Shown here: positions 14,220 to 46,619 of the stretch, piece by piece
How the letters are laid out: every line of letters starts with the position of its first letter
How positions within the stretch are numbered: position 1 is the stretch's first letter
DNA from: an uncultured Caulobacterales bacterium
GTDB lineage: Bacteria > Pseudomonadota > Alphaproteobacteria > Caulobacterales > Maricaulaceae
Assembly: GCA_938009235.1 (NCBI GenBank)
Contig: CALLIK010000010.1
Coordinates: 62,001-126,000, forward strand
Reading direction: 5' to 3'
Length of the DNA: 64,000 bases
Made by a program: the position numbers and the translations under genes
Notes under the pieces: model-generated
Databases searched by the model: none
Seen by the model: only the letters and a program-made list of their open reading frames with translations
Told to the model about the DNA's origin: nothing

Positions 14220-14801
14220 TTAAAAAAACTTCCAGAATGGCTTCTTCTTTGGTGGGTTATTTTGTATGAGCTCAAGAAACTGAAAGGGACTATCTTCAGT
14301 CAGGTCATCATATTTCAAACCGCAAAACCGCGCGAAAGTTTCAGACAAAATCTCGAATTGATCATCAACAATAAACTCAGCATCTTTACTCTCAAAAAGA
14401 GTTTTATCGGCTTTAGACTTCAAGGTTTGATAATGATTTAAAACGACTTGAGGCACATTACCCTCTGTCAAAAACACAGCTGGGTCTTCACAACCTATGT
14501 AACAAATACGCCATACAAGTTCCGAATTCTCAAAGCGGTCAACGTGGCCGGTCATCACACCTTCATGAACACCAAAACTCCAAAAATCTACATTTTCAGC
14601 AAGTCTTGATCGCTCAAGGTCAGAAAAATCACCGTCATGTGTGTTCTTCCAAATCACATAAGTATCGTTTTTAGCAAAACTGCCGCAAAAGGGAGTTTCA
14701 CAATAGGCATCGGAGCGCCCTGTTTCACCCAACCCAAGCGCAACACGGGTTTTTTCCGCGTCAGCCTTTGCAACGGCAACACATGCTATCTTGAAGCCCA
14801 T
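14220..14801 (-). CDS. Uncharacterised protein, downstream of pccA
   Basis: A 193-residue soluble protein I do not recognise. It starts two bases after the pccA stop (TAG-GT-ATG), so it is almost certainly translated from the pcc transcript. Visible features are an N-terminal strand/helix 'MGFKIACVAVAKADAEKT', a cysteine-containing segment 'YCETPFCGSF', an acidic middle and a basic/aromatic tail 'PPKKKPFWKFF'. There is no signal peptide or membrane helix. Its place in the operon suggests an accessory role, but neighbouring accessory genes in this locus look like recent arrivals, so this may be incidental. Confidence 0.65.
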   Translation of the reverse strand: MGFKIACVAVAKADAEKTRVALGLGETGRSDAYCETPFCGSFAKNDTYVIWKNTHDGDFSDLERSRLAENVDFWSFGVHEGVMTGHVDRFENSELVWRICYIGCEDPAVFLTEGNVPQVVLNHYQTLKSKADKTLFESKDAEFIVDDQFEILSETFARFCGLKYDDLTEDSPFQFLELIQNNPPKKKPFWKFF

Positions 14802-14803
14802 AC

Positions 14804-16852
14804 CTATTCGCCCGTTTCAAATTCCATGATGATCTCATCAACCGCGAGGTTATCGCCCGCCGCTGCGTTGATTGTCTTGATGACGCATTTGCTTTCGGCG
14901 CGGAGGGTGTTTTCCATCTTCATGGCTTCGACCACGGCGAGGGCTTGTCCGTCCTCGACTGTATCGCCTTCGGCCACCAACACACTGACGACAACACCCG
15001 GCATTGGGCAAAGCAGCAAGTTCGATGTATCTGGCGCGATTTTCAAAGGCATGAGCAAGGCGAGTTCCGCAGCGCGTGGATTGCGCACGGCAATGTCAAA
15101 TTCAACGCCGCGATGCCAGACGCGGTAGCCTTCGGGGATGGCGCGGGCTTTGAACGTAAAGGCGCGGCTATCGACATAGGCGCGAACGATTTCTTCGCCC
15201 GGTCGCCAGTTCAAACTGACCTCGAGTTCCAACGCCGCTTTGTCGCTATCGTCATTCATGACGATGGTACGCACGCCCGTTTCGCCATTCACGTCGGCGG
15301 AATAAACGCGGTCTTCGCCCGTGGGTGATTTCACGGCAACGGACCAAAGATCAGGCACATCACGTTCGTGGTTTTGCAGGCTGCCCGAAATTTGCGCGGC
15401 GCGATGTTCTTTGATGTCATGCATCAGAGTACAAACGGCGGCGATTTTGCGCGTATGGCCAGAGTTCTCTGGCGCGCCCAAAAAGCCTTCGGGATATTCT
15501 TCAGCAATAAACGCCGTTGTAATATCGCCGCGTGCAAAACGGTCATGATCGTAAACGGCTTGGAGGAAGGGGATATTATGCCCGATGCCGTCGAGTTCGA
15601 AATTATCGAGCGACTCTTTCATCGCCGCAATCGCGACGCCGCGATCTTCGCCCCACGTACAGAGCTTCGCGATCATCGGATCGTAGAACATCGAGATTTC
15701 GCCGCCTTCAAAGACGCCTGTGTCATTCCGAACAATCGCGCCAGTTTCCAGTGTGCCTTCTGCGGGTGGACGATAGCGTTTCAGGCGACCAATGCTCGGC
15801 AGGAAATTGCGATAAGGGTCTTCGGCGTAAATGCGCGATTCAAGCGCCCACCCAGTGAGGGTCACATCGTCCTGCGTCATGTTTAGCTTTTCACCCTGCG
15901 CAGAGCGGATCATTTGCTCTACCAGATCAACACCTGTGATCATTTCCGTGACGGGATGTTCGACTTGCAGACGGGTGTTCATTTCTAGGAAGTAGAAATT
16001 CTTATCCCCGTCGACGATGAACTCGACTGTGCCTGCGCTATCGTAATCTACGGCCTTCGCGAGCGCCACAGACTCTGCGCCCATCGCGGCGCGGGTTTCT
16101 TCGTCCAAGAATGGCGACGGCGCTTCTTCGATGACTTTTTGTTGGCGGCGTTGAATGGAACATTCGCGCTCACCTAGATAAATACAATTGCCGTGTTTGT
16201 CGCCGAGGACTTGGATTTCGATATGGCGCGGTTGGGTGATGAATTTCTCGATGAAGATACGGTCATCGCCAAAGCTCGTCTTGGCTTCGTTTTTGGAGGA
16301 TTGGAATCCTTCGCGGGCTTCTTCGTCATTCCACGCAATCCGCATCCCTTTACCGCCGCCGCCCGCAGACGCCTTGATCATAACGGGATAGCCGACTTTG
16401 TTAGAGATTTCGACGGCATGTTCGGCGTCGTCAATCAAGCCCATATGACCCGGCACGCAAGACACGCCAGAGTCCTGCGCAAGTTTCTTGGACGTGATCT
16501 TATCGCCCATCGACACGATGGCGTGCGGGTTGGGACCGATAAAGGCGATCTTCTCTTTCTTGAGGCGCTTGGCAAATTCAGGATTTTCCGAGAGGAAACC
16601 ATAGCCGGGATGGATCGCATCCGCGCCCGTATCTTTGGCGGCCTTGATGATCTTATCCATCACCAAATAGGATTGGTTCACGGCGGGCGGGCCAATGTGA
16701 ACCGCCTCGTCTGCCAGTCCGACATGCAACGCATTTTTATCCGCATCGGAATACACCGCCACAGTTTTAATGCCCATCTTCCGTGCCGTCTTAATAACGC
16801 GACACGCAATTTCACCACGGTTCGCGATTAGGATTTTTTTGATTTTGGTCAT
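14804..16852 (-). CDS. pccA: Propionyl-CoA carboxylase alpha (biotin carboxylase/carrier) subunit
   Basis: Carries biotin and carboxylates it with ATP and bicarbonate; with PccB it makes methylmalonyl-CoA from propionyl-CoA. Order: biotin carboxylase N-domain ('KILIANRGEIACRVIKTA'), ATP-grasp ('MIKASAGGGGKGMRIAW' and 'FLEMNTRLQVEHPVTE'), C-domain, a linker typical of PCC (BT domain) and the biotinyl domain with 'VVEAMKMENTL', biotinylated Lys645. The length of 682 fits PCC alpha rather than acetyl-CoA carboxylase AccC. The start lies three bases after the stop of the preceding small gene. Its first 25 codons are repeated twice, in damaged form, 0.4 and 0.9 kb upstream. Confidence 0.96.
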   Translation of the reverse strand: MTKIKKILIANRGEIACRVIKTARKMGIKTVAVYSDADKNALHVGLADEAVHIGPPAVNQSYLVMDKIIKAAKDTGADAIHPGYGFLSENPEFAKRLKKEKIAFIGPNPHAIVSMGDKITSKKLAQDSGVSCVPGHMGLIDDAEHAVEISNKVGYPVMIKASAGGGGKGMRIAWNDEEAREGFQSSKNEAKTSFGDDRIFIEKFITQPRHIEIQVLGDKHGNCIYLGERECSIQRRQQKVIEEAPSPFLDEETRAAMGAESVALAKAVDYDSAGTVEFIVDGDKNFYFLEMNTRLQVEHPVTEMITGVDLVEQMIRSAQGEKLNMTQDDVTLTGWALESRIYAEDPYRNFLPSIGRLKRYRPPAEGTLETGAIVRNDTGVFEGGEISMFYDPMIAKLCTWGEDRGVAIAAMKESLDNFELDGIGHNIPFLQAVYDHDRFARGDITTAFIAEEYPEGFLGAPENSGHTRKIAAVCTLMHDIKEHRAAQISGSLQNHERDVPDLWSVAVKSPTGEDRVYSADVNGETGVRTIVMNDDSDKAALELEVSLNWRPGEEIVRAYVDSRAFTFKARAIPEGYRVWHRGVEFDIAVRNPRAAELALLMPLKIAPDTSNLLLCPMPGVVVSVLVAEGDTVEDGQALAVVEAMKMENTLRAESKCVIKTINAAAGDNLAVDEIIMEFETGE

Positions 16853-16855
16853 AAT

Positions 16856-17233
16856 CTATCTTCTATCGAGCCAAGCATTTTGAATAGTAAAAAAGGTCTC
16901 TAGATCTGTCTTCCCAATTAAGAAGCGATCTTCCTTAAACTTCACAATAATTTTTCTAGTCTTTTTCTTTCGCTTACTGAAACGGCCAAAGAACTCCATA
17001 ACCATTGCGATAAAACTGCCGTCCATCCAATCATGTTGGGCTTCAACCGTGGCTGGAGTTGCGTCAATGCGTTCATATCTAGGGGGTGGATTTAGAAAGG
17101 TAATATCAGCCGCATCTATTTTCAATCCAGCCTCAGCGCCTCGAAAGCATACGAAATGATTATTCAAAAAATGGACCGAAAGACCCGTTTTTGCGAAATT
17201 ACTGTCTTCAACATTAATCCAATTCATAGCCAT
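16856..17233 (-). CDS. Small uncharacterised protein, first of a tandem paralogous pair
   Basis: A 125-residue protein of unknown family, clearly paralogous to the next gene upstream (17303-17698). Both start with a 'W-I-N-V-E-x-S-N-F' motif, share 'I-x-F-L-N-x-P-P' in the middle, a short hydrophobic helix (here 'FIAMVMEFFGRF') and a conserved tail with 'IIVKF', 'GKTDL', 'TFF' and 'QNAWLD'. The hydrophobic helix followed by a Lys/Arg-rich run 'RFSKRKKKTRK' suggests membrane association. The gene is visibly richer in A+T than pccA and pccB, which hints at a different origin. It ends three bases before the pccA start. Confidence 0.7.
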   Translation of the reverse strand: MAMNWINVEDSNFAKTGLSVHFLNNHFVCFRGAEAGLKIDAADITFLNPPPRYERIDATPATVEAQHDWMDGSFIAMVMEFFGRFSKRKKKTRKIIVKFKEDRFLIGKTDLETFFTIQNAWLDRR

Positions 17234-17245
17234 AACGAGAGCCTC

Positions 17246-17287
17246 TTATCCAGTCTTCGCGATTGGGGTTTTTGTGATTTTGGTCAT
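17246..17287 (-). pseudogene. Second, shortened copy of the pccA 5' end
   Basis: On the minus strand the ATG and following bases match the real pccA start: 28 of the first 31 aligned bases agree with 16822-16852. It reads a 13-residue peptide, 'MTKITKTPIAKTG', then stops. Relative to the other copy (17708-17785) it lacks about 30 internal bases, joining the first codons to the far end of the repeat. Its TAA stop overlaps a weak ribosome-binding site (AAGAGG) for the small gene that follows. Confidence 0.8.
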
Positions 17288-17302
17288 ATTGAAAACTGCA
17301 TT

Positions 17303-17698
17303 CTATTTACTGTCTAGCCAAGCGTTTTGGACGGCGAAGAAGGTGTTTAAATCTGTTTTTCCGCTGAAAAATTTATCATCTGCGAATTTGACGATAATGC
17401 GTGCGTTTTGTTTTCGGCTAATCTTTGTCGTTTTTCCGCCTCCGAAGAAGGCGAATATTTCCATTAAAAATGCGAGGAAGGTGCCCACGTAAAATGCGTT
17501 TTTAAATATATTCGTATCGGTTGAACCGCTGACGCGTCCTCGGTTGGGTGGTTTGTTTAGAAATATAATTTCACTCGCAGGACGTTTAATCGCGGACGGC
17601 TCGGCATTCGTATCGCAGGTAAAAACGCCCTCATTGAACTGGCACGTTCTACCCAGTGGCATGAAATTACTTTTTTCAACATTGATCCAACCTGCCAC
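17303..17698 (-). CDS. Small uncharacterised protein, second of a tandem paralogous pair
   Basis: A 131-residue paralogue of the 16856-17233 product, sharing the N-terminal 'GWINVEKSNF', the middle 'IIFLNKPPNRGR', a longer hydrophobic segment 'AFYVGTFLAFLMEIFAFFGG' and the closing 'GKTDLNTFFAVQNAWLDSK'. Translation starts at a GTG with a strong ribosome-binding site (AGGAG, six-base spacing) that overlaps the TAG stop of the pccA-like mini reading frame just upstream. The single membrane-like segment and Lys/Arg-rich flank suggest a membrane-associated protein. Function unknown. Confidence 0.7.
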   Translation of the reverse strand: MAGWINVEKSNFMPLGRTCQFNEGVFTCDTNAEPSAIKRPASEIIFLNKPPNRGRVSGSTDTNIFKNAFYVGTFLAFLMEIFAFFGGGKTTKISRKQNARIIVKFADDKFFSGKTDLNTFFAVQNAWLDSK

Positions 17699-17707
17699 TT
17701 GAGTCTC

Positions 17708-17785
17708 CTATACAGTCTTAATAACGCGAAACGCGATTTCGCCACGGTTGGCGATTAGGGTTTTTGTAATTTTAAATAACCTCAT
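17708..17785 (-). pseudogene. First partial copy of the pccA 5' end (25-codon fragment)
   Basis: This reads 'MRLFKITKTLIANRGEIAF' and then 'RVIKTV' before a TAG stop. It matches the PccA N-terminus (K-I-x-K-x-L-I-A-N-R-G-E-I-A-x-R-V-I-K-T) in both protein and DNA; the DNA match to the true gene runs from the fourth codon to about codon 24. It has its own strong ribosome-binding site (GGAGG, nine-base spacing), so the fragment is probably translated, and its stop overlaps the ribosome-binding site of the next gene. It cannot encode an active domain. Confidence 0.85.
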
Positions 17786-17811: not shown

Positions 17812-18543
17812 CTAGTTGCTTTCGCCATAAAAAATAGCGACGCCCATGAATACCATTAGCACGAATGGAACTATGTAATAGGTAAGCCAAATTCTAAACT
17901 TTGCCACGCCGACAAACACCCGCTGCCGTGTTAAGACAGCTTGAAACTGTCTACCCTCTTTCATTGTTTTTTCAGATTGAACAATGGCTTCAGATAACTT
18001 TTCTCCTAGTTTATAATTACCAGGTATAGAGACGATTATCGTAGAAAGTAGAGCGTCAATGTGATCTCTTTTGTATTCTAAAAAATCGTAGTTACCCCCA
18101 TCAGTCGGCTGCGTCGCATTTTCCCGCTTCAATTTATTCGCTTCTTCAAGAAACTCTTTTTTAATTTCGGCTACTTTGCGAATATTTGGAATCATGCCTT
18201 CAATTTCCCGAAGGACGCCTTGAGCTCTCTCAGTTTCATCCAAGACATTTGCCCAAGAGATATCTACTCTTTGTTTATACCTATCCATATCTTCTGAAAT
18301 TTCAGACAATATCTTTCTTTCATCAAACACGCGAAGTGTATAATTAAGACCCAAATAAAGTGCGATAATAAGCAACCCGACTTCAACTAAGGGCTCACAA
18401 ACTCCATCGAAGGCAAAGGCAATGAGTTTTGGATCGTTTGATAAATCAAACCAAGATACAACGATGCTAAGAACGGCAGCTGAGGTATATCTAAAATGGG
18501 CTTTAGAGGTTGCTTCTTCAAAATCCTTAAAGGTCGCACTCAC
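17812..18543 (-). CDS. Uncharacterised membrane protein with coiled coil, inside the pcc locus
   Basis: A 243-residue protein of no family I recognise. Predicted layout from the sequence: two membrane segments near the N-terminus (around 'AAVLSIVVSWFDL' and 'VEVGLLIIALYLGLNYTL'), a long charged helical middle (about residues 70-205, rich in Glu, Lys, Arg, likely coiled coil) and a C-terminal membrane segment 'YYIVPFVLMVFMGVAIFY'. The central part would face the cytoplasm if the ends are membrane-bound. It lies between pccB and the first pccA-end fragment, with an inverted repeat between it and pccB. The A+T-rich composition resembles the two small paralogues rather than the pcc genes. Confidence 0.65.
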   Translation of the reverse strand: MSATFKDFEEATSKAHFRYTSAAVLSIVVSWFDLSNDPKLIAFAFDGVCEPLVEVGLLIIALYLGLNYTLRVFDERKILSEISEDMDRYKQRVDISWANVLDETERAQGVLREIEGMIPNIRKVAEIKKEFLEEANKLKRENATQPTDGGNYDFLEYKRDHIDALLSTIIVSIPGNYKLGEKLSEAIVQSEKTMKEGRQFQAVLTRQRVFVGVAKFRIWLTYYIVPFVLMVFMGVAIFYGESN

Positions 18544-18575: not shown

Positions 18576-18651
18576 CGTCACCCTCGGGCTTGACCCGAGG
18601 GTCCATGCTTCTGGGGAGAGATGGGTCCTCGGGTCAAGCCCGAGGATGACG
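18576..18651. repeat. Long intergenic inverted repeat (alphaproteobacterial REP-like palindrome)
   Basis: Two near-identical inverted arms of about 31 bases (18576-18606 and 18621-18651) each contain a nested palindrome, CCTCGGGCTTGACCCGAGG at 18582 and CCTCGGGTCAAGCCCGAGG at 18627. The element sits between pccB and the next gene. Palindromes with this CTCGGG-x-CCCGAG core are familiar as dispersed intergenic repeats in Alphaproteobacteria. As RNA it would form a long hairpin, and could attenuate or stabilise the pcc transcript. Confidence 0.85.
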
Positions 18652-18670: not shown

Positions 18671-20209
18671 TTAAAGCGGTAAGTTCCCATGCTTCTTCCA
18701 CGGGTTTTCTAGCTTTTTATCTTTCGCCAGAGCCAGTGCGCGGCAGATGCGTTTTCGGGTCGAGCGGGGTTGGATGACCTCGTCGATATATCCGCGTTCG
18801 GCAGCGCGGAAGGGCGAGAGGAATTTCTCCTCGTAATCCGCGACATGTTCTGCCGTTTTCTCGGCATCGCCCAAATCTTTACGGTGCAGGATTTCGACTG
18901 CGCCCTTTGCGCCCATCACAGCGATTTGCGCGGTGGGCCAGGCGTAATTCATATCATTGCGCAGATGTTTCGGGGACATCACGCAATAAGCGCCGCCGTA
19001 AGCTTTGCGCGTAATGACGGTGACTTTCGGGACTGTCGCTTCGCCGTAAGCATAGAGCAATTTCGCGCCGTGCTTAATCACGCCGCCATATTCCTGATCT
19101 GTACCGGGCAAAAATCCGGGGACATCGACAAGGGACAGCACAGGGATTTCGAAACAATCACAAAAGCGAATAAAGCGCGCGGCTTTGCGCGACGCATTAC
19201 TATCGAGGCAACCCGCCAGAACCATCGGTTGGTTCGCAACCACGCCAACGGTTTGACCTTCGAGGCGAATGAAGCCGCACAAGATATTCTTGGCGTAGTC
19301 CGCTTGGATTTCAAAGAAGTCGCCCTCATCTGCGATCTTCGTGACAAGCTCTTTCATATCATAGGGCAAGTTCGGGTTTTCTGGCACGAGCGTATCGAGA
19401 CTCTCGTCGATACGATCATGCGCGTCATAGAATGGACGTCTCGGCGCGCCATCACGATTATTCAGCGGCAGGAAGTCAAACAAGCGGCGGATTTCCGACA
19501 GCGCTTGCATGTCATTGTCATAGGCCCCGTCTGCCACAGAGGATTTGGACGTGTGGGTCTTCGCCCCGCCCAATTCTTCGGCGGTCACGATTTCATTGGT
19601 AACGGTTTTCAGAACATCTGGCCCCGTCAGGAACATATAAGAGCTATCGCGGACCATGAAGATGAAATCCGTGAGCGCGGGCGAATATACCGCACCCCCC
19701 GCGCTTGGTCCCATAATCACAGAAATCTGTGGAATAACGCCAGAGGCCAGAATGTTGTTCTGGAAAACGTCTGTGTAACCCGCCAGCGCCGCAACGCCTT
19801 CTTGGATTCGCGCTCCGCCTGAATCTTGCAGGCCAATGATCGGCGCGCCATGACGCATCGCCATCTCTTGGACCTTGTTGATCTTCTTAGCGTGGGTTTC
19901 CGACAGCGACCCGCCGAAAACTGTGAAGTCTTGCGCAAAGACGAAAGTCTTGCGGCCATTGATCGTGCCCCATCCCGTGACAACGCCGTCACCAGAGAAG
20001 TGCTTGTTTTCCATACCGAAATCGGTGGAGCGATGTTTGACGAACATGTCGAATTCTTCGAAGCTGCCCGGGTCCAGTAGGATTTCCAAGCGTTCTCGCG
20101 CTGTCAGCTTACCTTTGGCATGCTGTGCGTCGATGCGGCGTTGACCGCCCCCAAGTCTTGCTTCGTCGCGTCGTGCTTGCAACTGGTCTAGAATATCGCT
20201 CAAGGTCAA
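18671..20209 (-). CDS. pccB: Propionyl-CoA carboxylase beta (carboxyltransferase) subunit
   Basis: Transfers the carboxyl group from PccA-bound biotin to propionyl-CoA. The 512-residue length is typical. Two crotonase-like carboxyltransferase halves are visible: N-terminal '[20 protein letters not shown]' and '[14 protein letters not shown]', then '[12 protein letters not shown]', '[17 protein letters not shown]' and '[13 protein letters not shown]'; C-terminal '[20 protein letters not shown]' and '[13 protein letters not shown]'. The tail '[17 protein letters not shown]' is that of PccB proteins. It is first in a minus-strand locus that includes three accessory genes and then pccA. A 229-base gap separates it from the divergent RND adaptor gene and should hold its promoter. 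Confidence 0.96.
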
Positions 20210-38968: not shown

Positions 38969-39438
38969 CCAAAGATCGAAACGTAACGCGTGAAAATCAA
39001 CCTCGGTTTATAGACGCTCTTTGCTCGGCCTCCATCACACTCTGGTTCATTACATCGATTGGCTTTTGCATTAGCTTCATCAATCACGAGACTAGAACGC
39101 TTTGGGAAGCCATAATAGTAAGCTTTTTTTCTTTATTTACAGCCTTACCCGTCGCCTTCATTTTAAGTGGCATCGTCAGTCTACCCCTATGGGTTTCTTT
39201 TCAGTATTTACATCTACTTAGCCACAAAACAGCCCCAATCATTGGAGTCACAACAGGGTTCACACTTACGGCAATATACGTTTTTATCGCACCTTTTGAT
39301 TACGCGGGTACCTACACAATCACCTCCGCAGAAGGGCTTAAGACAATCAGCATTGCATCTATCTTAGGCGGTGTATCTGGGTGGAATGGCTATCGTTTCG
39401 CATTGAATGGACGGCGCATAAAAAGGAAGAAGGTATGA
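38965..39438 (+). CDS. Small membrane protein of the desaturase operon
   Basis: A 157-residue integral membrane protein of unknown family. Four hydrophobic stretches are visible: 'ASITLWFITSIGFCISFI', 'AIIVSFFSLFTALPVAFILS', 'PIIGVTTGFTLTAIYVFIAP' and a weaker one around 'SIASILGGVSGW'. The tail is basic ('NGRRIKRKKV') and should be cytoplasmic. It overlaps genes on both sides by four bases (ATGA), so it is an integral part of the operon. Similar small four-helix proteins sometimes assist membrane enzymes; here that is speculation. Confidence 0.7.
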   Translation: MTKDRNVTRENQPRFIDALCSASITLWFITSIGFCISFINHETRTLWEAIIVSFFSLFTALPVAFILSGIVSLPLWVSFQYLHLLSHKTAPIIGVTTGFTLTAIYVFIAPFDYAGTYTITSAEGLKTISIASILGGVSGWNGYRFALNGRRIKRKKV

Positions 39439-40400
39439 CCTTCAAACAACTTCTCACTGAAGGACCAAAGCCAATCTGGATTCGGTACCTTCTAATTCTC
39501 GGCGTTGTCACCATGATCACGCGATTGGTGCTCGATTCCCGCTTTGCCACGACCTCATTCTTCTATTGCCTCGTCCCTTATGTGATCGGTGTGATTCTCT
39601 ATGTTTTTGTGCCGCAACCCACCGGCTGGACAAAAATGAGGCGTTTTGGTCGTCACCTTCTCGCGACGATCATTGTCATGTTAGCGAGTTCGGCGCTTCT
39701 ATTTGAGGGCTTTATTTGCGTCCTCATGGCTGCGCCGATTTATATCTTCTTTGCCGTTATCGCGTTCATGTTTACACCCAACAGAGCTGACCCTGATCGC
39801 CTCAAGCAAAGCGATGTTTTTAGATCTAGCATCGTACCGCTCGCCGTCATCATCATATCCGTCGAGGGTTTAACAGACACGACGAGCTTTCCGCGTGAAG
39901 AAGTCATCACCCGCACACACATCGTCAATCTGACACCTGCGCAAATTCATGCAAATCTTGCGGAGCCCGTGCATTTGGATGCAGCACGAAGTAAATTCCT
40001 CTCCCTCTTCCCACTGCCTGATCGCGTAGACGCGCCAGACTTTGCGCAAGGTCAAACCCACAAAGCCTTCTTCACCTATCGCCGTTGGGGGTTCACCAAT
40101 GTCCATAAGGGCGAGACTCATCTGCATATAAAAACGGTGCAGCCATTATTGGTCGAAACAGAAATCACGCAGGACACAAGTTACTTCTCACACTACCTCA
40201 CCATACACGGCACCAAGATTGAAATGGTCCCGCAAGCCAATGGCAATACAGAGGTCAGCCTCACCATCCGCTATCGACGTGAATTAGATCCCGCTTGGTA
40301 TTTCGGCCCGCTACAACGCCGCGCCATTCGCGAAAGTGGAGATTATTTATTACGCGAAATAATCGGAAAAACAGCCACAGAAGTTGACCCTACATTATGA
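39435..40400 (+). CDS. Membrane protein with soluble SRPBCC-like C-terminal half
   Basis: A 321-residue protein. The N-terminal 130 residues hold several membrane segments ('YLLILGVVTMITRLVL', 'FFYCLVPYVIGVILYVF', 'LATIIVMLASSALLF', 'FICVLMAAPIYIFFAVIAFM'). The C-terminal half is a soluble beta/alpha region beginning after 'EEVITRTHIVNLTPAQIHAN' that resembles START/SRPBCC-type lipid-binding domains. I choose the ATG at 39435, which overlaps the previous stop; the frame is open further upstream. The last 22 residues contain 'GDYLLREIIGKT', shared almost exactly with the end of the following desaturase. Function unknown; lipid handling fits the neighbours. Confidence 0.7.
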   Translation: MTFKQLLTEGPKPIWIRYLLILGVVTMITRLVLDSRFATTSFFYCLVPYVIGVILYVFVPQPTGWTKMRRFGRHLLATIIVMLASSALLFEGFICVLMAAPIYIFFAVIAFMFTPNRADPDRLKQSDVFRSSIVPLAVIIISVEGLTDTTSFPREEVITRTHIVNLTPAQIHANLAEPVHLDAARSKFLSLFPLPDRVDAPDFAQGQTHKAFFTYRRWGFTNVHKGETHLHIKTVQPLLVETEITQDTSYFSHYLTIHGTKIEMVPQANGNTEVSLTIRYRRELDPAWYFGPLQRRAIRESGDYLLREIIGKTATEVDPTL

Positions 40401-41356
40401 TGGACCCTGTCCACCGCGTAGACGCTACAGGCGCATCAGCCTGTGATGGACGCGTAACCCTAGATGCCACGAAAATCATCTGGACTGGCGGCTTAATGGT
40501 GAGCGGTCTAATACTCATTCCGTTTTTCACAAATTGGACGGCTGCCTTCATCGGCTTAACGCTAACATATATCACCCTTCTTCTGGGACATTCCGTTGGC
40601 ATGCACCGCATGATGATCCACCGCAGTTTCGAAACGCCGCCTTGGCTACGATACAGCCTAATATATCTAGGAACATTGGTTGGGATTGGTGGTCCCTCTG
40701 GAATCATAAAAATTCATGACACGAGAGACTGGGCGCAACGTGAACCAAAATGTCACGACTACTTCTCTCATCAACGTGGGTTTTGGCGCGATATTACATG
40801 GCAACTTTTTTACCGATTTGACCTCGATAACCCGCCAAAAATTACCATTGAACCTAACATTCAAACTGACCCATTTTTGAAACACCTAGACACCTATTGG
40901 CGATGGCATCAAATAGGACTTGCGTGCCTGCTCTTCCTTAGCGGAGGCTTACCGTTGGTCGTCTGGGGCATATGTCTACGTGTCACAATTAGTACGGTCG
41001 GGCATTGGACCGTAACATATATTTGTCACAACCCAGGACCTGGCCGATGGGCCGTCGAAGGCTCTGGCGTTCAAGCCTCGGATTTAAAGCTTCCAAATTG
41101 GATAGGTGGATGGCTGACACATGGGGAATGCTGGCATAGTAATCATCACGCTTTTCCTGAAAGCGCTCAGATTGGCCTAGAGCGCGGACAAATTGATCCC
41201 GCGTGGTATGTCATCGCAGCCCTAGAGAAAGTAGGGCTCGCGAAAGACGTCGGCAGGCCCCGTGAAAACATTAACGACCTACGGGAACGTGGAGATTATT
41301 TACTCCGCGAAATCATAGGGAAGACACCCGCAGAAACAGGCTCTGTAGATGCGTGA
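40397..41356 (+). CDS. Fatty acid desaturase-like protein 1 (chimeric C-terminus)
   Basis: A 319-residue membrane desaturase homologue of the acyl-CoA/delta-9-like type. His boxes are 'GHSVGMHRMMIHRSF' (H-x-x-x-x-H-R-x-x-x-H-R), 'HDTRDWAQR' with a preceding 'KIH', 'VGHWTVTYICHN' and 'GECWHSNHHAFPESA' (H-x-x-H-H). Paralogous to the next gene across the whole core. The last 23 residues, including 'GDYLLREIIGKT', match instead the end of the preceding unrelated gene, indicating that the 3' end was copied from it. It overlaps both neighbours (4 and 8 bases), so the operon is tightly coupled. Likely modifies membrane acyl chains; the double-bond position is unknown. Confidence 0.83.
   Translation: MMDPVHRVDATGASACDGRVTLDATKIIWTGGLMVSGLILIPFFTNWTAAFIGLTLTYITLLLGHSVGMHRMMIHRSFETPPWLRYSLIYLGTLVGIGGPSGIIKIHDTRDWAQREPKCHDYFSHQRGFWRDITWQLFYRFDLDNPPKITIEPNIQTDPFLKHLDTYWRWHQIGLACLLFLSGGLPLVVWGICLRVTISTVGHWTVTYICHNPGPGRWAVEGSGVQASDLKLPNWIGGWLTHGECWHSNHHAFPESAQIGLERGQIDPAWYVIAALEKVGLAKDVGRPRENINDLRERGDYLLREIIGKTPAETGSVDA
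41289..41335 (+). repeat. Duplicate of the 3' end of the preceding gene (copy at 40336-40382)
   Basis: The 47 bases at 41289-41335, inside desaturase 1, match 40336-40382, the 3' end of the preceding membrane-protein gene, at about 39 of 47 positions. Both copies are read in the same frame and give 'GDYLLREIIGKT'. This explains why two unrelated proteins share a tail. Confidence 0.85.
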
Positions 41357-42302
41357 AATCCATGACCGCATAATTCCAACGCCAGACTCTAATGCTGAGG
41401 TCGGGCAGATTTCATGGCACCCTTCGAAGTCCATTTGGTATTTTTCACATCTACTAATTTGGCTCACAGTCGGCATTTCAGATTTCAGCCTTAACGCCGT
41501 CCTCGCGTCTCTTGTACTAACGATAATCATACTCTGCGGTGGGCACAGTATCGGTATGCACCGCAAACTTATTCACGATAGCTTTAAGTGTCCGCTCTGG
41601 CTTGCGCGCTTAGGCGCATATCTCGGCACTTTGGTCGGCTTAGGCGGACCCTTTACGATGATGCGGGCTCATGACCTTCGCGATTGGGCGCAGCGTCAGG
41701 AAACCTGCCATCCGTTCTTTTCTCAACACAACGGCCTTTGGCGCGATTGGCTTTGGCAAACGCATGCCAAGCTTGTTCTGACGGCGGAACCAAGCATAAT
41801 TTATCCACAAAAGTTGACCCATGACCCATTTATGGCCTGGCTACAGCGAACAGTCTGGCTTCAACAAATTCCAATTGCCGCGGCCCTGCTTTACTTCGGG
41901 GATTGGGGATGGGTCGCATGGGGCGTAAGTGGTCGCATGATCATATCCATCACAGGGCATTGGCTCATCGGATGGTTTGCCCATAATCAAGGCCCACGTA
42001 ATTACCACGTGAACGGACACGGCGTGCAGGGTTATAATGTGCCGGGTCCAGCGGCCTTGTTTGGGTTTATTACCTTTGGTGAATGTTGGCATAACAATCA
42101 CCACGCATTTCCAGAAAGCGCGCGTTTCAGTCATCGCCGTTATGAGGTTGATCCGGGTTGGTGGGTTTTATGCGCATTGGCGAAGATTGGCCTTGTCACT
42201 CATTTGATCACGCCTGACGTCGCGCCAAATCTTTCGACACGGAAAGAAACGGGTTTAAAATCAGTTTCTGTCACCCCTCTTCACATAGAAGAAAAACTGT
42301 GA
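41349..42302 (+). CDS. Fatty acid desaturase-like protein 2
   Basis: A 317-residue paralogue of the preceding gene. Conserved elements are 'GHSIGMHRKLIHDSF', 'GTLVGLGGPFTMMRAHDLRD' followed by 'WAQR', 'TGHWLIGWFAHN' and 'FGECWHNNHHAFPESA'. Hydrophobic helices flank the boxes as in other membrane desaturases. It lacks the 'GDYLLREIIGKT' tail seen in its neighbour and instead ends with a longer, presumably ancestral, tail 'TGLKSVSVTPLHIEEKL'. It overlaps the upstream gene by eight bases and ends the operon; rmuC begins 27 bases on with its own strong ribosome-binding site. Two copies may act on different chains. Confidence 0.85.
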   Translation: MREIHDRIIPTPDSNAEVGQISWHPSKSIWYFSHLLIWLTVGISDFSLNAVLASLVLTIIILCGGHSIGMHRKLIHDSFKCPLWLARLGAYLGTLVGLGGPFTMMRAHDLRDWAQRQETCHPFFSQHNGLWRDWLWQTHAKLVLTAEPSIIYPQKLTHDPFMAWLQRTVWLQQIPIAAALLYFGDWGWVAWGVSGRMIISITGHWLIGWFAHNQGPRNYHVNGHGVQGYNVPGPAALFGFITFGECWHNNHHAFPESARFSHRRYEVDPGWWVLCALAKIGLVTHLITPDVAPNLSTRKETGLKSVSVTPLHIEEKL

Positions 42303-44486: not shown

Positions 44487-46259
44487 TTAATCAACGCCAA
44501 TCGCTGCAGATTTCGGTCCACGTGGATCGGCAGCTCCTGCAATGTAACCGTCTTCAACTTGCCCAACTGAGTTTACGCGGCCCAATATTGTGCGCGCTGT
44601 AGATCCATCTGGGCCGTTTGAAATTTCGTGGCCCATGCCGCGTAATATACGGACTGTATCTTCATTGATGGTAGGTTCCAAGGCAAGGCGGTCAGGCAGC
44701 CATTGATGATGAATACGACCACGACTTGTGGCCTCAGACAGGTTCATTTCCCATTCCATCACATTAAGCGCGACTTGCATCACAGATGTTATAATTGTCG
44801 ACCCGCCGGGCGAACCAGTCGCCAAAACAACTTCACCATCTTTCATAACAATCATAGGCGTCATGGACGAGAGTGGACGTTTGCGCGGCTCGATCTTATT
44901 CGCCTCGCCACCAATCAAGCCATACCCATTCGGAGATCCAGGTTTGGCTGAAAAATCATCCATTTCATTGTTCAAAAGAAACCCCGCGCCATCGACTGAA
45001 TATCCTGATCCATACGAAAAATTCAGTGTATAGGTCACTGAGACGGCATTGCCGAAACGGTCCATGGTTGAATAATGCGTCGTGTTTACAGGCTCGGGGA
45101 CAAGCTGTGCACCCGGCAAAATATCAGACGACAAAGACGCCATTTCTAAATCAATACTCGCACGTAAACGGTCCGCATAGGCTTTATCTGTCAAAGCCTC
45201 CACTGGAACATCTACGAAATCAGGATCACCCAAATATTTCGATCGATCAGCATAAGCACGGCGCATACTTTCTATCAATTTGTGCAAATAGGCGGCTGAA
45301 TTATGTCCATCCGCCTGCAAGTCATACCCTTCAAGAATATTGAGCATCTGCACGACATGGACTCCACCAGACGAAGGTGGTGACATCGCCGCGATTTCAT
45401 ATCCATGGTAAGTTCCGCGTACGGGTTCGCGTATGACAACTTCATAATTCGCGAGGTCTTCAAGTGTAATTAACCCGCCGCCTTGCGTCATTTCATCGGC
45501 GATGAGTTGCGCCGTTTTCCCTGCATAAAACCCATCCGATCCATCTTGCATGATCCGCCGCAATGTCTTGGCGAGGTCCGATTGTTTCCACGTCTCGCCC
45601 GACTTGATGCCGACGAAATAATCAATGGAGCTATCATCAGCCGCAAATTTTTTGCGGGCTGAATTCAAACCTTCAGTCAACGCCCTGCTGGCGGTAAATC
45701 CTTTTGACGCTAATTTAATGGCCGGCCCCATGACTTGGCGGCGACTCATCGTTCCATGTGCTTCGAGAGCCTCCAGCAACCCCATTACAGTTCCAGGCAC
45801 ACCCGCAGACGCGCGACTAAATTGCGCCTTGGCATTATCAACTTCACCTGCCTCGTTCAGGTACATATCTCGATCAGCAGACGTAGGTGCCATTTCGCGA
45901 AAATCAATTGTCAGAGTTTCACCTCTGTCTTTGAGATGGACAACCATAAACCCGCCGCCGCCAAGGTTCCCTGCTGCTGGGTGGGTCACGGCCAACGCAA
46001 ATCCTACCGCAACGGCTGCATCGACAGCATTACCGCCTCGCGCCAAAATATCGGCTCCAACTTGAGAGGCAATACGGTCTTGAGAACTAATCATGCCGCC
46101 TTTTGCAAGGACAGGATGGTGAATGGTGCCATAATTAAAAACGGCCCGAGCGCCGGGCGCAACTTCGGTTTTATCTGCGGCCAATGCGGACCCCGAAACG
46201 AAAGGGGAAACAGAGACAAGACAGGCCATCAATAAGGGCGCGATTGAAGAAGGTCTCAT
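44487..46259 (-). CDS. ggt: Gamma-glutamyltransferase (periplasmic)
   Basis: A 590-residue precursor that cleaves the gamma-glutamyl bond of glutathione and related peptides in the periplasm. It has a signal peptide (hydrophobic core, then 'GSALAA'), N-terminal '[20 protein letters not shown]' and 'GGGGFMVVH'-type start, and the self-cleavage site in '[16 protein letters not shown]'; the first Thr of T-T-H-Y becomes the new N-terminal nucleophile of the small subunit. The C-terminal part has '[18 protein letters not shown]' and '[11 protein letters not shown]'. It lies between recR and ybaB on the same strand. Confidence 0.95.
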
Positions 46260-46295
46260 TTACGTGTCCACCTGTTGTCTCGGTATATATTCATC

Positions 46296-46619
46296 TTAAA
46301 AGGGTAACTTCATACCAGGCGGGAGCTGCATATCACCCATGGCTGATTTCATAGTCTCGGCCTGTGCTTGATCCATCTTCACCTTAGCATCCTGATAAGC
46401 TGCAACAATCAGGTCTTCCACGACCTCTTTATCTTCGCCGTTCAACAAAGAGGGATCGATTTCCAACGCCTTCATATTGCCGCCGCCTGCGAGCGTGACG
46501 CTGACTAAACCACCACCAGAGCGACCCGTTGCCGTCAGGTCAGCCACTTGAGACTGAGCCACTTCCATTTTCTTCTGCATGTCCTTCGCCTGTTTCATCA
46601 GGCCCATTATGTCTTTCAT
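46296..46619 (-). CDS. ybaB: YbaB/EbfC family nucleoid-associated protein
   Basis: A 107-residue YbaB/EbfC protein, a small DNA-binding dimer. The N-terminal helix is Met/Lys-rich, 'MGLMKQAKDMQKKMEVAQ', followed by 'GGGLVSVTLAGGGNMKALEI' and 'EVVEDLIVAAYQDAKVKMDQ', and ends 'PPGMKLPF', all as in the family. It begins nine bases after dnaX, the classic dnaX-ybaB order, and so is likely cotranscribed with it. Confidence 0.96.
   Translation of the reverse strand: MKDIMGLMKQAKDMQKKMEVAQSQVADLTATGRSGGGLVSVTLAGGGNMKALEIDPSLLNGEDKEVVEDLIVAAYQDAKVKMDQAQAETMKSAMGDMQLPPGMKLPF

Follow-up and report, generated by a model that had tools for sequence, protein, structure and literature searches.

An insertion slot between pccB and pccA in a family of Alphaproteobacteria that can hold ends of its flanking genes

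The genes for the two subunits of propionyl-CoA carboxylase, pccB and pccA, are separated by three accessory genes in a 64,000-nt stretch of DNA (hereafter the window) from an uncultured Caulobacterales bacterium of the Maricaulaceae (GenBank assembly GCA_938009235.1, contig CALLIK010000010.1, positions 62,001 to 126,000). All of these genes lie on the minus strand. The upstream border of the interval, which we call the slot, is pccB, called as an open reading frame (ORF) for the carboxyltransferase subunit (18671..20209), and the downstream border is an intact pccA of 682 aa (14804..16852), which codes for the biotin carboxylase and biotin carrier subunit. Directly after pccB comes an imperfect inverted repeat with 31-nt arms (18576..18651), similar to repetitive extragenic palindromic (REP) elements, ACCCTCGGGTCAAGCCCGAGGGT, whose inner palindrome recurs in the slot of one other locus (L177). 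Accessory gene 1 follows (17812..18543); its 243-aa product has the look of a membrane protein, with hydrophobic stretches judged by eye. Next come a first copy of the pccA 5′ end (17708..17785), accessory gene 2 or small paralogue B (131 aa; 17303..17698), a second copy (17246..17287), accessory gene 3 or small paralogue A (125 aa; 16856..17233), and finally pccA.

This gene order, its coordinates, and the pccA repeats had been reported in a preliminary description made from the letters of the window alone, and all were borne out. The accessory genes are also, as had been stated there, richer in A+T than the pcc genes. Their G+C fractions are 0.40 for gene 1, 0.43 for B, and 0.40 for A, compared with 0.53 for pccA (first 900 nt) and 0.56 for pccB (last 400 nt). 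Paralogues A and B are 45% identical to each other and match no Pfam family significantly (best E 0.05), and accessory gene 1 has no significant Pfam or PADLOC family. The structure predicted for gene B from a two-sequence alignment had a mean predicted local distance difference test score (pLDDT) of 56.5, which is too poor for a fold search.

The two copies stand out clearly from chance. Against the window slot, the pccA 5′ end reaches an alignment score of 52, and 30 shuffles reach at most 16. When the first 131 nt of pccA were used to query the whole assembly of the window (16 contigs, about 95% complete), the gene itself was recovered together with copy 1, at 88% over 59 nt (E 4.5e-15), and copy 2, at 91% over 32 nt (E 7.3e-6); nothing else in the assembly matched at E<1, and four other matches had E>1. 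Copy 1 extends from the start codon to approximately nucleotide 66 of pccA and forms an open frame of 25 codons from ATG to TAG, MRLFKITKTLIANRGEIAFRVIKTV, whose stop lies 9 nt ahead of gene B. Copy 2 is shorter and is still an open frame, from ATG to TAA, MTKITKTPIAKTG, with its stop 12 nt before gene A.

The preliminary description had envisaged cassettes, each composed of a gene and a pccA start, that were inserted one after another. For B and A, tandem duplication appears more likely than this serial scheme, because copies 1 and 2 have the same novel right-hand junction. The two versions, AAGACTGTATAGGAGACTC and AAGACTGGATAAGAGGCTC, agree at 16 of 19 nt, a likeness that 2000 shuffles of the tail of copy 2 never reached. 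Because the junction is the same in both copies, we rejected separate insertions of the two genes. Copy 2 is moreover a mosaic. Its start is pccA-like, the part that follows is copy 1-like at two differing sites and pccA-like at one more, and its end is the copy 1 junction. From these sequence features, B and A look like tandem duplicates of one unit of copy plus gene that arose after one insertion. The simplest account is a single insertion behind a pccA end followed by unequal crossing-over of that end with the pccA start, an account whose basis is only a few bases. Recombination at the repeated pccA end had been raised earlier as another possible route, and it is for the B/A pair that the mosaic structure of copy 2 suggests it.

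In the family as a whole, pccB was sought in 137 genomes and matched at E<=1e-220 in 109. The loci that were fetched represent the group in which pccB and pccA adjoin, and 41 of them, from 39 genomes, contain both genes. The seam between the genes measures at most 20 nt in eight loci, in some of which the pccB stop overlaps the pccA start, and 57-154 nt in four more. The remaining 29 are filled with 0.4-2.5 kb of DNA that carries one to four same-strand ORFs of at least 60 aa each, and in every one of these 29 the filling is A+T-richer than both flanks. The preliminary description had proposed to look for relatives whose seam is empty, has a single gene, or has different genes, and such relatives exist. 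Dropped from the survey were five family loci whose contigs end before pccA (L176, L180, L190, L201, and L202), two partial pccB matches (G089:C153 and G127), three loci without pccB (L063-L065), and 12 loci of the family's other pccB group. In this other group, pccA lies 2.6-7.1 kb off in four loci and was not found in eight, one of which ends after 1.6 kb.

The content of the seam changes often. A pccA tree was built from the 29 loci in which this gene was readable, and 12 loci whose pccA starts were short or misplaced were omitted; the tree requires at least nine changes between the empty and the filled state when the single short gap is scored as empty. The pccA genes of the window and of locus L046 are 91% identical and their slots have no gene in common, and the near loci L051 and L052 are in opposite states, the former filled and the latter empty. 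Other near loci have a common occupant (L197 and L200, at 83%; L053 and L054, distantly). Two genomes hold more than one pcc operon, again in differing states (L049 empty and L050 filled in G018; L188 empty and L189 filled in G135). Across the family, the seam of pccB and pccA is a slot for insertions, and the diversity of the accessory genes that one pair of core genes encloses in 29 of 41 loci is a feature of Oliveira-type hotspots of horizontal gene transfer without mobile elements.

Ends of the flanking genes are present in other slots as well. Each of the 30 slots of at least 150 nt was scanned with the pccA and pccB proteins available from its own locus; in 14 slots no more of pccB than the last 148-226 residues could be used, and in seven pccA was partial. 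Eight matches at E<1e-4 fell in seven slots, and all of them derive from seam-facing ends. Seven of the 29 filled slots carry such displaced ends of an anchoring gene beside an added gene, the mark expected of homology-facilitated illegitimate recombination; pccA 5′ ends occur in five and pccB 3′ ends in three, one slot having both. The pccA fragments correspond to residues 3-22 in the window, 1-31 in L046, 4-53 in L056, 3-25 in L179, and 3-23 in L182, and the pccB fragments to the last 32, 26, and 30 residues in L050, L055, and L179, respectively. In L179, a gene sits between the pccB end and the pccA end. The slot of Litorimonas cladophorae contains a 178-aa ORF, a 94-nt copy of the pccA 5′ end, and an M15-like gene. 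One further match in L056 (pccB residues 395-412, reverse strand, E 0.005) is weaker and chance-like. The fixed gene order free of pccA fragments that the preliminary description had named as incompatible with cassette insertion is not what the family presents, because relatives vary at the seam and four more loci (L046, L056, L179, and L182) hold such fragments.

For six of the eight fragment alignments the gene of the same locus ranks first, a ninth, chance-level alignment in L200 being excluded. The exceptions are the L182 fragment, which is closer to the gene of L060 from the same genus, and the pccB end of L050, which is closer to those of other genomes. The pccA fragments end at residue 22, 23, 25, 31, or 53 of the own gene, and three of these five end points fall within four codons. 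All five pccA copies that precede a gene are open frames whose stop lies between -4 and +12 nt from the start of that gene: 9 and 12 nt in the window, 3 nt in L046, 0 nt in L179, and a 4-nt overlap in L056, where the first pccA codons are missing from the copy, which has no clear start of its own. In L182, no same-strand ORF of at least 60 aa comes after the copy, which is therefore omitted from this count. The spacing is consistent with selection for kept translational coupling across the operon or, alternatively, with a joint made immediately before the gene that came in, and it does not discriminate between these readings. As possible second crossover sites, REP-like palindromes were also counted; strict ones are present in four of 29 slots, compared with none of 24 control stretches from pccA. 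As a separate observation, palindrome-like stretches adjoin the fragments in L179, L182, L050, and L055.

The slots yielded 48 same-strand ORFs, from which five that translate repeats were left out to give a set of 43. Minus-strand ORFs of at least 60 aa were set aside (in L050, L055, L178, L179, L182, and L195), and the rule for overlapping ORFs removed a DUF2442 gene of L050. Of the 43 ORFs, 29 belong to 11 families with at least two ORFs, and 14 are single, one of these being the pccA scar frame of L179. A profile of the A/B family recovered four members across the 137 family genomes; they come from three genera, and all lie inside pcc slots. Five M15-like genes from three genera that are at least 66% identical (the query included) are likewise all located after pccB and make up a single clade (100/100). 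Ten more distant M15-like genes (48-57%) lie elsewhere. Nine are on contigs other than that of the genome's pccB match, and the tenth is in G008, a genome without such a pccB match; G126 has a short, weak match. Judged by eye, some of these distant relatives occupy other co-directional seams (L226, L227, and L221), apparently in the vicinity of guaA or rsmB, or adjoining pgi.

About a third of the 43 slot ORFs are recognized by Pfam at E<=1e-5, and about two thirds are without a family. The families represented are DUF559, Mrr_cat, DUF7079, DUF4160, Macro, AbiJ_NTD4, T5orf172, TIR_2, HNH, and DUF2442. In raw counts, PADLOC matches at E<=1e-8 were obtained for about five of the 43 slot ORFs (TIR-TM, PDC-S32, PDC-S57, and two Mrr-type) and for one of 53 conserved ORFs of the window. 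Genes of anti-phage type (TIR, AbiJ-like, GIY-YIG, and Mrr-type) are a minority of the slot genes, and the case for a defence role is at most suggestive.

A comparable situation exists at the seam between trpB and trpA. From 30 trpA places, 20 were fetched in full and 19 were readable (L299 is without trpB). The gap is 0-8 nt in eight of these, 67 nt in one, and 475-3227 nt in the ten that are filled. The proteins encoded in the trp slots differ between loci and are often exported-looking. Locus L296 contains a copy of the trpA 5′ end between its first and later slot genes (score 50, with shuffles at most 17), L309 has a weaker 29-nt trpA 5′ fragment (24 compared with 17.5 in shuffles), and a weak trpB 3′ match in L298 is tentative. 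The fragments in L296 and L309 are closest to another genome's trpA, with the own trpA ranking third and second of 19, respectively. No match was found between the 21 trp-slot ORFs and the 48 pcc-slot ORFs at E 0.01. The trpB–trpA seam is a similar slot with the same anatomy, and a phenomenon confined to pcc was rejected because trpB–trpA behaves alike. Some of the trp-slot proteins (L291-L310) appear chaperone-usher-like by eye.

Two broader possibilities were also rejected. The idea that every operon has such a slot fails on the tight spacing of the atp genes, with 9-35 nt between atpA and atpG in 26 of 26 loci (atpG was unmatched in four of 30 genomes) and at most 104 nt between atpG and atpD in 25 of 26, the last having 446 nt. 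The idea that any variable gap would collect fragments fails on a scan of 13 co-directional gaps of more than 250 nt from the window and genomes G013 and G009, of which two contained pcc fragments and a third that was flagged proved to be a tandem gene duplication. Outside the family, in Rhodobacterales, Rhizobiales, and others, gaps of 320-4511 nt separate the genes in 69 of 73 loci with both pccB and pccA. A protein scan of these 69 loci found no seam-end fragment, and one DNA match of 25 of 28 nt in L091 is tentative.

On balance, we think it probable that alleles of the slot are exchanged through homologous recombination in the two flanking genes, and that occasional one-sided joins add a gene and leave a core-gene end behind. 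DNA carrying another strain's pccB-X-pccA allele would enter the cell, and crossovers in both flanking genes would exchange the slot content cleanly, which would account for the majority of loci, among them those that are empty and seamless. Occasionally the homologous crossover would take place on one side only, with an illegitimate join near the seam on the other. Such an event would set a new gene beside the resident one and retain a short pccA or pccB end at the junction, giving the orders gene1-pccA′-gene2-pccA or gene1-pccB′-gene2-pccA. Recombination with the intact gene would loop out truncated copies of greater length, leaving ends no longer than about 160 nt. In the window, one small gene may have been inserted after a pccA end some 66 nt long, and unequal crossing-over may then have doubled the unit of end plus gene into B and A. 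The surviving ends are open and stop beside the next gene, so that translation could stay coupled along the operon.

The slot and its variability, the fragments of both genes, the common junction with the mosaic copy, and the frame spacing are observed; we infer the recombination route, its loop-out filter, and its vehicle, which may be natural transformation or a gene transfer agent (GTA). ComEC was found in all 18 genomes tested and also in most control genomes. The gene-transfer-agent marker protein GTA_TIM was found in 14 of the 18, the window's own genome included (G000:C9:82450-83316). Together, ComEC and the GTA marker make the transfer of chromosomal DNA plausible without showing that it occurs. 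A bolder extension holds that the seams of heteromeric enzyme subunits (pccB–pccA and trpB–trpA) are clade-wide exchange sockets with their own gene pools, fed by GTAs or competence, whose retained ends serve as translational couplers. We regard this extension as speculative and, in so general a form, rather unlikely.

Several observations weigh against allele exchange with one-sided joins. A swap of alleles would be expected to make the pccB and pccA trees incongruent. The pccA and pccB groupings of G007 appear different, and approximately unbiased (AU) tests against a shared placement were not significant (p 0.11 and p 0.30). That six of eight fragments are most like the gene of their own locus fits duplication within a lineage and a donor that is a near relative alike. 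The occupants are partly recurrent, which allows for much vertical inheritance. Three of the five pccA fragment ends lie within about 6 nt of one another when read by hand, which would not be expected of a random joint, and 22 of the 29 filled slots contain no fragment. Furthermore, variability alone does not set pcc apart, because other neighbour pairs also vary in spacing.

Because of the non-significant AU tests, the clustered ends, the 22 fragment-free slots, and the recurrent families, differential loss stays a serious rival, albeit one that we consider unlikely. According to this explanation, the occupants are ancient and have mostly been inherited vertically and have decayed, and the pcc ends arose by local tandem duplication. 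The grouping of 29 of 43 slot ORFs in 11 recurrent families, the restriction of the A/B family and of the M15-like subclade to the slot, the preference of most fragments for their own gene, and the probable local duplication behind the B/A pair all suit it. It accords poorly with near neighbours whose contents are wholly different, such as the window and L046 or L051 and L052, and with the number of empty/filled changes on the pccA tree. In addition, eight loci are seamless or nearly so, a condition that repeated deletion is unlikely to have restored so often.

The resemblance to attachment-site regeneration that the preliminary description had noted leads to a further explanation, namely site-specific integration. 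In such a scheme, the pccA 5′ end would be the attachment site, and a recombinase from elsewhere would insert cassettes of gene plus pccA start, each time regenerating the start. The start codon is indeed kept with the copy in four of the five slots that carry pccA ends (in L056 the copy starts only at codon 4), codons 22-25 contain three of the five end points, and the intact gene is always downstream. However, pccB 3′ ends occur too, in L050, L055, and L179, and for this reason the pccA start is not a unique or dedicated attachment site. The pccA ends themselves vary from codon 22 to codon 53, so that two kinds of core-gene end with variable limits are seen in place of a single fixed site, and trpA ends are present at another operon (L296 and, more weakly, L309). 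No recombinase, integrase, or transposase family was among the Pfam matches of the 43 slot ORFs at E<=1e-5, a scan that left the minus-strand and the five repeat-translating ORFs unscanned and was not extended to a search of whole genomes for recombinases. We judge site-specific integration to be improbable.

Homing-type spread, in which nuclease genes would cut the empty seam and be copied in along with flanking DNA, is very improbable: a few slot nucleases are present (HNH, T5orf172, two Mrr_cat, and two DUF559), yet they amount to at most about six of the 43 slot ORFs, and the three window genes match no nuclease family. An assembly artefact or misjoined contigs can hardly be credited, since the same anatomy is seen in Litorimonas cladophorae KCTC 23968 (L066) and in other assemblies, even though draft contigs end at or near the seam in several genomes (G010, G001, G002, G016, and G135); these contig ends could reflect mixed populations or repeats.

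Parallels to the slot can be drawn with several known systems. Integron gene cassettes are inserted serially, as single genes and in one orientation, and the slot genes resemble them in this respect. Unlike integrons, the slots have no integrase family among their genes (attC sites were not searched for), and the ends that remain come from two flanking genes and not from one site. Hotspots of horizontal gene transfer without mobile elements (PMC5635113) resemble the slot in the turnover of accessory genes between the same two core genes, and no recombinase is found among the slot genes here. They differ in that the seam described here lies between the subunit genes of one enzyme, presumably within an operon, and that it receives few, small, co-directional genes and keeps core-gene ends as scars. 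New genes rarely integrate within operons, according to that work.

Homology-facilitated illegitimate recombination has been proposed for type VI immunity-gene arrays (Kirchberger et al. 2017, PMC5361080). Type VI effector-immunity arrays and Rhs orphan tips resemble the slot in that insertions are made one after another, from one side, next to a conserved stretch, and displaced genes or gene ends stay in the array; they differ from it in that our anchors are intact housekeeping metabolic genes and our inserts are diverse and not effector/immunity pairs. For SAR11, PMC2217521 describes insertions and deletions of genes, and it finds rearrangements to be commonest at the boundaries of operons. 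Small gene insertions within conserved regions of marine Alphaproteobacteria are common to both cases, whereas the slot described here lies between subunit genes and carries scars. Among the papers listed by literature searches on the pcc and trp seams and on related subjects, none names such a slot in its title or in the beginning of its abstract.

Operons are generally regarded as resistant to insertion. Here, two metabolic gene pairs of one family of marine bacteria act as slots with frequent content change, non-overlapping gene pools, and visible scars. They offer a readable record of the entry of single genes into operons without a recombinase in the slot, and they are a place to seek new genes. 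The slots also provide a natural setting in which to test whether accessory genes pass from one species to another by gene transfer agents.

Beyond the slot, Litorimonas cladophorae KCTC 23968 (G013) has a stretch that is colinear with the window and in which 53 of 59 mechanically called window ORFs were found. Spacings between neighbours differ from those of the window by more than 250 nt in nine of 52 cases in G013, 11 of 34 in G009, and four of 11 in G003, and the differences in G013 include both sides of pccA. None of the three window slot genes is present in the syntenic stretches, gene 1 being unmatched in that of L. cladophorae. Immediately downstream of pccA, a minus-strand gene of 193 aa (14220..14801) starts 2 nt past the pccA stop. 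No counterpart of it was found in the stretches syntenic to the window in G013, G009, G003, and G014, and the spacing downstream of pccA differs from that of the window in the first three of these. This gene possibly marks a second, smaller slot.

Three minor observations concern other parts of the data. In L061 (G028), pccA is apparently split by a frameshift near residue 250. Another co-directional seam of the window (46259-46296) measures 36 nt; its counterparts in G013 (2.1 kb) and G009 (1.4 kb) are longer and without core-gene fragments. Finally, window positions 39381-42302 include tandem paralogues (40397-41356 and 41349-42302), both of which correspond to a single place in G013 and G009.

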